From contig NZ_FNFO01000002.1 in assembly GCF_900100765.1 (NCBI RefSeq), positions 1 through 64,000 of the forward strand: DNA of 64,000 nt. The letters are read 5' to 3'. The position numbers were made by a program, and so were the translations under genes. The stretch is from Catalinimonas alkaloidigena (GTDB lineage: Bacteria; Bacteroidota; Bacteroidia; Cytophagales; Flexibacteraceae). The notes below the pieces were generated by a model. The model was not told where the DNA came from. It did no database searches and saw nothing but the letters and a program-made list of their open reading frames with translations. Shown piece by piece: positions 175-354 of the stretch (positions within the stretch are counted from its first letter, which is position 1; the number at the start of each line of letters is the position of its first letter).

Positions 175-212
175 ATAAAAAACGCCTTCCCAGTTGGTTC
201 CGGAAAGGCGTT
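175..212 (-). terminator. Terminator hairpin of a putative cysteine attenuator
   Basis: Read on the minus strand, the arm AACGCCTTTCC (212-202) pairs with GGAAGGCGTT (190-181), leaving one bulged T, and is followed by a T-rich tail TTTTATT. This is an intrinsic-terminator shape lying between the poly-Cys leader ORF and the oxidoreductase start at 95, so transcription of the oxidoreductase would have to read through it. The 5' arm contains CCTTTCC, exactly complementary to GGAAAGG inside the leader ORF (264-258), so a mutually exclusive antiterminator can form. Confidence 0.7.
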
Positions 213-246
213 CGTTGTATTAAAACGTTTGTGAGATCTTCAGATG

Positions 247-354
247 CTAACACATACCCTTTCCAAGAAACCCTGCGGCTTCCATACAACAGCAACAACA
301 CATCGCAGTAGCGAGGCTGGCGGTGGGCATGGATGAAAACGGGTGAATGGTCAT
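247..354 (-). CDS. Poly-cysteine leader peptide (35 aa), putative attenuator ORF
   Basis: The ORF runs from ATG at 354 to TAG at 247 and encodes 35 residues. Codons 19-23 are TGT TGT TGC TGT TGT, five consecutive cysteines, and the last codon before the stop is also TGT (Cys35). The sequence around the run reads ATAMCCCCCMEAAG. An AAGGAG sits 16 nt before the ATG, so initiation is not clearly Shine-Dalgarno driven. The stop is 34 nt before the terminator arm at 212, and the oxidoreductase follows on the same strand. The arrangement matches ribosome-mediated attenuation: Cys-tRNA scarcity stalls the ribosome on the run, frees GGAAAGG in codons 31-33, and blocks the terminator. Poly-Cys leaders acting on cysteine genes are known in mycobacteria; use here is inference. 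No similarity to a RiPP precursor is evident. Confidence 0.65.
   Translation of the reverse strand: MTIHPFSSMPTASLATAMCCCCCMEAAGFLGKGMC

Follow-up and report, generated by a model that had tools for sequence, protein, structure and literature searches.

In a 64,000-nucleotide stretch of Catalinimonas alkaloidigena DNA, hereafter called the window, the first 870 nucleotides carry on the minus strand an OsmC-like gene, a short leader ORF, an intrinsic terminator and the start of an FNR-like flavin oxidoreductase gene. The leader ORF (354-247, 35 codons, MTIHPFSSMPTASLATAMCCCCCMEAAGFLGKGMC) opens with ATG behind an A-rich stretch and contains five consecutive Cys codons, TGT TGT TGC TGT TGT (codons 19-23, 300-286), for which a regulatory role is proposed; a sixth Cys codon, TGT (252-250), is the last sense codon ahead of the TAG stop (249-247). 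Cys-rich leaders are found at the same relative place in relatives. The extent of the ORF and the arrangement of its Cys codons are as described in the first-pass annotation, and the same holds for the FNR start behind leader and terminator, which has its ATG at position 95. Just 31 FNR codons (95-1) are present before the gene runs off the contig, because contig C2 ends at window base 1. The OsmC-like gene (870-454), which scores 77.3 bits with NF008009, below the cutoff of 138, ends about 100 nt upstream of the leader start and is a possible source of read-in transcription into the leader region.

The terminator (213-180) consists of 14 pairs and a 6-nt loop followed by a T tract that extends to about position 175. 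A terminator with a T tail had been predicted here with a bulged stem; terminator and tail are present, but the stem includes G-U pairs and has no bulge. The hairpin lies 33 nt behind the leader stop codon, and its stem ends 84 nt ahead of the FNR start, without overlap with FNR. The fold of positions 250-170 is better than that of 200 out of 200 dinucleotide shuffles (z -3.9). Scanning window positions 1-3000 with Rfam yielded only sub-threshold matches, ctRNA_pGA1 over the terminator hairpin being one of them (25.3 vs 45 bits), and at the leaders of five sources no Rfam family was found at or above its gathering score.

Near the end of the leader ORF lies a candidate antiterminator segment (273-255) that can pair with the 5' arm of the terminator. 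The pairing predicted with RNAduplex is at -18.8 kcal/mol against a shuffled mean of -12.3 (fraction 0.033). The segment begins 12 nt past the Cys run and ends five bases ahead of the stop codon. A ribosome covers some 12-15 nt beyond its A site; it would therefore leave the segment free when stalled on the Cys run and cover it when at the stop codon. When the full-length leader is folded, the tail pairs instead with a stretch ahead of the leader start codon, a pairing that may either persist under translation or be prevented by the ribosome.

The Cys run alone means little, because runs of four Cys codons are common in the Catalinimonas genome: on bare DNA, 126 four-codon TGY runs were counted in the whole genome and 95 in the reversed control. 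A scan of 30 TGY-run loci of this genome (out of 126 sites, with some sites covered by several loci) flagged the window site and three others (L034, L046-L050 and L051), all three located inside long ORFs.

FNR copies and sulfur genes in C. alkaloidigena

The 95 nt of FNR in the window recur without a difference, and in the same direction, at the end of contig C6. The identity starts exactly at the FNR ATG and the bases ahead of it differ, from which it follows that both contigs run into one duplicated stretch. With an FNR-like query, two FNR 3' ends were found, both at contig ends. At the end of C11 the last 183 FNR codons are followed by a 2Fe-2S ferredoxin-like gene, and C10 starts with the last 36 codons. 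These two 3' ends are equal over the first 95 nt of C10, after which one base differs before the stop. The two FNR copies are thus alike at both readable ends and have different flanks (window 1-95, end of L003, end of L073 and start of L074). As judged from the ends, which alone can be compared, the pair most probably represents a recent duplication or gene conversion, roughly as long as the coding sequence, at which the assembly breaks.

Behind the FNR end, C10 carries in this order sir, a uroporphyrinogen-III methyltransferase gene, a CysG N-terminal-domain gene, cysH and an O-succinylhomoserine-sulfhydrylase-like (homocysteine-synthase-like) gene. The first of these, a gene of the sulfite/nitrite-reductase family (163-2292), stays below every NCBIfam cutoff, the best family being NirA with 264 vs 523 bits, and its name therefore rests on its neighbours. 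The PAPS reductase gene cysH matches NF002537 with 185 bits (cutoff 154), and the O-succinylhomoserine-sulfhydrylase-like gene reaches 505.8 bits vs 522.

It had been proposed that sulfur genes follow the oxidoreductase. They do lie behind an FNR 3' end, that of C10; their link to the leader, however, spans a contig break. The assembly lacks the middle of FNR and does not itself show which upstream end joins which downstream end. We infer that the leader-FNR copy of C2 continues into the sulfur operon of C10, because the FNR genes of relatives are without Cys leaders and Cys leaders recur ahead of sulfur operons. A Cys leader with a terminator was found upstream of none of 13 FNR genes of relatives, nor upstream of the C6 paralogue. 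By our own reading of the sequences, at least nine of these 13 genes are followed by a ferredoxin-like ORF. Elsewhere in the C. alkaloidigena genome no accepted module of Cys leader and terminator was found at the second cysH (C8) or at the cysCDN cluster (C7).

The leader could in principle govern the FNR-ferredoxin pair of C11 and not the sulfur operon of C10. The assembly permits both, since C2 and C6 share the 95 nt and C10 and the C11 end both carry FNR 3' sequence. This arrangement is nevertheless improbable, as such leaders stand ahead of sulfur operons in many genomes but ahead of no FNR gene among the 13 of relatives, and the region upstream of the C6 copy has, by eye, a TATCTTTG box.

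Cys leaders ahead of sulfur genes in other Bacteroidota

Within the bacterial order to which Catalinimonas belongs, a Cys leader followed by a terminator was found in 4 of 40 cysH-centred loci. It precedes a lone cysH in L123; two modules accompany sir-cobA-cysG-cysH in L124; two modules in tandem lie ahead of sir in L125 (14282-14024); and two more, in L138 (13774-13509), stand ahead of a cysM-like gene clustered with cysH. The other 36 loci (4-20 kb) yielded no accepted module; in the second batch the scan admitted only terminators of -11 kcal/mol or better. Further ORFs with Cys codons close to hairpins, in eight other loci of the first batch and in L074, and likewise in L146, L157 and L160 of the second, were set aside by eye, as the hairpins were weak or lay off the sulfur genes.

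Anchoring on sulfite reductase yielded more modules than anchoring on cysH. The sir gene is present in 67 of 392 Bacteroidota genomes (E <= 1e-80). Among 29 listed sir loci with an upstream region nine modules were accepted, five by the scan (L168, L173, L181, L184, L185) and four by reading, namely L171, L182, L183 (two Cys codons) and L172 (one Cys codon, weak). A named collection comprised the best 80 of a larger number of sir loci. In this set leaders occur in Saprospiraceae, Flammeovirgaceae, Fulvivirga, Flexithrix, Reichenbachiella, Pedobacter, Mucilaginibacter, Parapedobacter, Chitinophaga, Portibacter and unclassified MAGs. No module was found in the eight loci of family f26, taken for Flavobacteriaceae, that were listed from the 392 genomes (L174, L176, L179, L187, L188, L189, L191, L192).

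In the relatives the leader usually lies directly ahead of sir and not of FNR. With genes named by our own reading of the sequences, it precedes a peroxiredoxin-like gene heading the operon in L238 and L245, an oxidoreductase-like gene in L227 and, in L253, the operon cysH-cysD-cysN-sir, in which FNR and ferredoxin genes are present as well. The number of Cys codons per leader in the comparison set ranges from one (L172) or two up to the 11 consecutive codons of a Saprospiraceae leader (L194). Modules in tandem are found at five loci (L125, L138, L194, L202, L253). The expectation that Cys runs would recur ahead of orthologous operons is thus borne out at many Bacteroidota loci, mostly ahead of sir; it does not hold for most loci, nor for any of the 13 FNR genes.

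Two further observations concern the make-up of these loci. In L195 a Cys leader with a terminator lies between a metZ-like gene and sir of one cluster (-226 to -143 relative to sir), and another Cys-run ORF is located farther upstream. Met codons flank the Cys runs of L233, L185, L227, L238 and L245 (e.g., MMCCCCCMM); such runs may sense Met jointly.

The leader peptides differ between families, even within the order; what they share is the Cys run, the place where it lies, and the pairing. A covariance model was set aside because the sequences differ too much between families. The same pattern bears on the idea that the ORF of the window encodes a small Cys-rich protein, for instance a metal-binding one, with its own terminator. 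The ATG-started frame and the A-rich stretch ahead of it would suit such a protein, but recurrence of run, position and pairing while the rest of the peptide differs, together with the recurring place ahead of sulfur operons, makes this very unlikely.

For counting, a strict rule asked for a short ORF, outside long genes and within 1500 nt, in which eight codons include at least three for Cys, and for a terminator that follows the last of its Cys codons at a distance of 38-92 nt. Of the 80 sir upstream regions 77 were scored, three having too little upstream DNA. A match was obtained in 18 of 77 regions in the sense direction, in 1 of 77 in antisense, and in a mean of 0.0 with two shuffles of each; the remaining 59 loci had no strict match within 1500 nt. 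That the Cys run of the window stands merely by chance beside the terminator of the OsmC transcript is accordingly very improbable, even more so than a Cys-rich protein: runs of four TGY codons are frequent in this genome, but sense matches far exceed antisense and shuffled ones, and the other three flagged sites of the genome all fall inside long ORFs.

In a first count by amino acid, Leu and Cys were equal (25 of 105 loci each). This count includes both L168 and L233, apparently a single locus taken from two collections, and one other duplicate was removed from it; L124 and L202 seem to be another such pair. With the geometry imposed and ORFs inside long genes excluded, Cys was found in 18 and Leu in 14 of 77 loci. 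Eight of the 14 Leu stretches hold a TGY run in another frame and six do not, vs 2.5 in shuffles. Met-rich leaders were found at 8 of 77 loci (0.0 in shuffles), five of which are also Cys loci. Leader, terminator, spacing and gene context together are beyond what shuffling produces.

The -7 consensus of Bacteroidota promoters is TAnnTTTG. A perfect box of this type lies within 130 nt upstream of 20 out of 34 leaders, vs 11 % of shuffles. The ATG follows 4-14 nt behind the box in some loci of Pedobacter, Mucilaginibacter and Parapedobacter, and the transcripts of those leaders may therefore be nearly leaderless. The window leader has no perfect -7 box upstream, the best candidate matching at 5 of 6 positions.

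The pairing of leader tail and terminator was compared over 44 modules in 38 loci, a set collected by hand for Cys leaders and not for pairing, albeit that pairing had been seen by eye in the first few. It includes L233 and L202 and not their doubles L168 and L124, and one module (L172) with a single Cys codon; modules with doubtful terminators (L195 upstream, L204) and with terminators set by hand (the second of L202, and L258) were kept in the counts. The distance from the last Cys codon to the terminator is 44-82 nt in 40 of 42 measured modules. When the stretch between Cys run and terminator was paired with the 5' arm and loop of the module's own terminator, 27 of 44 modules were at or below the 5 % level (300 shuffles, median 0.03). 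With 200 shuffles, 28 of 44 own pairings were at the 5 % level vs 46 of 220 mismatched ones (Mann-Whitney p 9e-10), and 16 of 44 modules miss this level. That more than 5 % of the mismatched pairings reach it as well is due to a recurring terminator core.

An alignment of twelve loci of the Mucilaginibacter type and similar ones was read by eye. The pairing GGCTG:CAGCC is unchanged in L171, L181, L183, L240 and L247 and is kept by way of a G-U pair in L182. A change on both sides, to GGCTA:TAGCC, is seen in L243. One of the five pairs is broken in L184, L230 and L263, and the pairing is absent from L177 and L200.

Proposed attenuation and other poly-Cys leaders

The module of the window very probably acts as a ribosome-mediated transcription attenuator that senses charged tRNA-Cys (Cys-tRNA). 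This reading had been proposed from the window itself; with sulfur genes on C10 and Cys runs ahead of the sulfur operons of relatives it gains support and appears largely right. RNA polymerase would move along the leader followed by a ribosome. With ample Cys-tRNA, this ribosome would pass the five Cys codons, reach the stop and cover the ORF tail (273-255), upon which the terminator would form and transcription would end ahead of FNR. When Cys-tRNA is short, the ribosome would wait at the Cys run and the tail would stay free to pair with the 5' arm of the terminator; no terminator would form, and the polymerase would proceed into FNR. Read-through would presumably reach the sir, siroheme, cysH and homocysteine-synthase-like genes of C10. 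The leader, its Cys run, the terminator, the spacing, a possible alternative pairing that exceeds shuffles and the genes beside such modules in relatives can be read from the sequences; that the leader is translated, that ribosomes stall on it and that the operon is regulated in this way is, like the junction of C2 and C10, what these features lead one to expect.

Poly-Cys leaders are also found ahead of other genes. A six-Cys-codon pattern occurs in 217 of 395 genomes. Out of 30 listed loci with this pattern 21 lie over ORFs of at least 130 codons on one strand or the other; the other nine comprise one ahead of cysS, three ahead of PhyH-like genes, two ahead of an apparent rpoB, and three others (L290, L301, L305). 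The first of these (L298) contains MFFLSHTCCCCCCC, which ends about 60 nt ahead of cysS (TIGR00435, above cutoff). A survey of cysS gave 57 matches in 60 genomes of the family of L298, and 30 loci were listed. An ORF with adjacent or clustered Cys codons was present in the 350 nt upstream of 11 of these 30. Nine of the 11 (L329, L331, L332, L333, L335, L337, L338, L342, L356) are very short ORFs, with starts assigned by script, that end in a Cys run directly before the stop, at 52-80 nt from the start of cysS. A terminator was not found behind any of the nine, which may therefore act on translation.

A separate observation was made in family f26. Near position 1500 of L313, L315 and L317, from three genomes, a similar leader containing 6-9 Cys codons precedes a PhyH-like gene by 76-83 nt, and a CDP-alcohol phosphatidyltransferase-like gene comes next (both named by eye). 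Two of these leaders end in the Cys run, and the frame of L315 runs on. A link with cysteine-derived sulfonolipids is a guess.

The cysS leaders raise the question whether the leader of the window, too, acts mainly on the translation of the next gene, by coupling or a blocked start, a mode reported from mycobacteria, the hairpin being a minor or unrelated terminator. Besides these Bacteroidota leaders without a found terminator, precedents are the Cys leader peptides without terminators in Actinobacteria (PMC1262725) and translation attenuation at Cys-codon uORFs, which is named in a figure legend of PMC13236596. Such a mode of action is unlikely here, since the terminators of the sir type lie within a narrow range of distances and tend to pair with the leader tail, and the terminator stem of the window ends 84 nt short of the FNR start.

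It is tentatively suggested, with somewhat less than even confidence, that Bacteroidota possess a wide Cys-tRNA regulon without a shared regulator, in which terminator-type poly-Cys leaders of sulfate/sulfite operons, sometimes in tandem, and terminator-less ones of cysS evolve independently, and in which Met-rich flanks could give joint Cys/Met sensors. A recurring Cys attenuator would offer these bacteria control of sulfur genes by cysteine without a dedicated transcription factor, and through it cysteine would join the amino acids sensed by classical attenuation. If true, the succession of Cys run, 44-82 nt and terminator could serve as an annotation rule for such operons. The tandem modules and the leader with 11 Cys codons would be natural test pieces for the relation between codon number and sensitivity.

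Comparison with known leader systems

Like the classical attenuators (trp, his, leu, ilv, thr, phe), the module has a short ORF rich in codons for the amino acid of the pathway, an intrinsic terminator between leader and first structural gene, and a leader tail predicted to pair with the 5' arm of the terminator. The operon may make the sensed amino acid: in relatives such leaders precede sulfur operons, and in Catalinimonas the connection would run by way of the FNR duplicate across the contig break. It differs from these systems in the amino acid, cysteine, in the phylum, Bacteroidota, and in the presence of two modules in tandem at five loci. Sulfur genes are also controlled by termination in tRNA-Cys T-box and SAM riboswitches. 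Unlike these, the present leaders gave no Rfam match at gathering score, and it is an ORF that recurs and not an aptamer.

By 2010, to the knowledge of the authors concerned, Proteobacteria and Actinobacteria were the only groups with demonstrated leader-peptide systems, to which a his case of Bacillus was then added (PMC2965389). In Flavobacterium psychrophilum, a member of the same phylum as Catalinimonas, clues for leader-peptide attenuation were obtained ahead of amino-acid biosynthesis operons; the passages concerned name no cysteine or sulfur operon (PMC9723704). Leader-peptide-like sORFs have been described in Bacteroides (PMC7366714), and leader genes of Bacteroidetes have been counted, without a cysteine case in the relevant passages of that work (PMC4833913). 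Among the matches listed from the open literature, with subscription papers mostly outside this range, no Cys attenuator in Bacteroidota and no account of cysteine control of sulfur assimilation in this phylum was found; a Cys prediction could be contained in Lopatovskaya 2010.

The closest parallels are the leaders of Actinobacteria and mycobacteria, which share with that of the window a run of Cys codons in a uORF, the link to a sulfur or Cys operon being in Catalinimonas a probable one. Mycobacterial poly-Cys leaders are reportedly Cys-responsive, with a leaderless transcript, as work by Canestrari from 2020 is said to describe. Poly-Cys attenuators of mycobacteria are also cited in PMC13236596. 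The Actinobacterial leader peptides with Cys runs precede cys operons and, in the part of the study dealing with them, are described as having their run near the stop and no conserved terminator (Seliverstov 2005, PMC1262725). From this description the leader of the window differs by its strong terminator and by a Cys run in the middle of the ORF (codons 19-23 of 35), and the cysS leaders look closer to the Actinobacterial type than the window type does. Together with the Actinobacterial leaders, the Bacteroidota modules suggest that poly-Cys sensing arose more than once.
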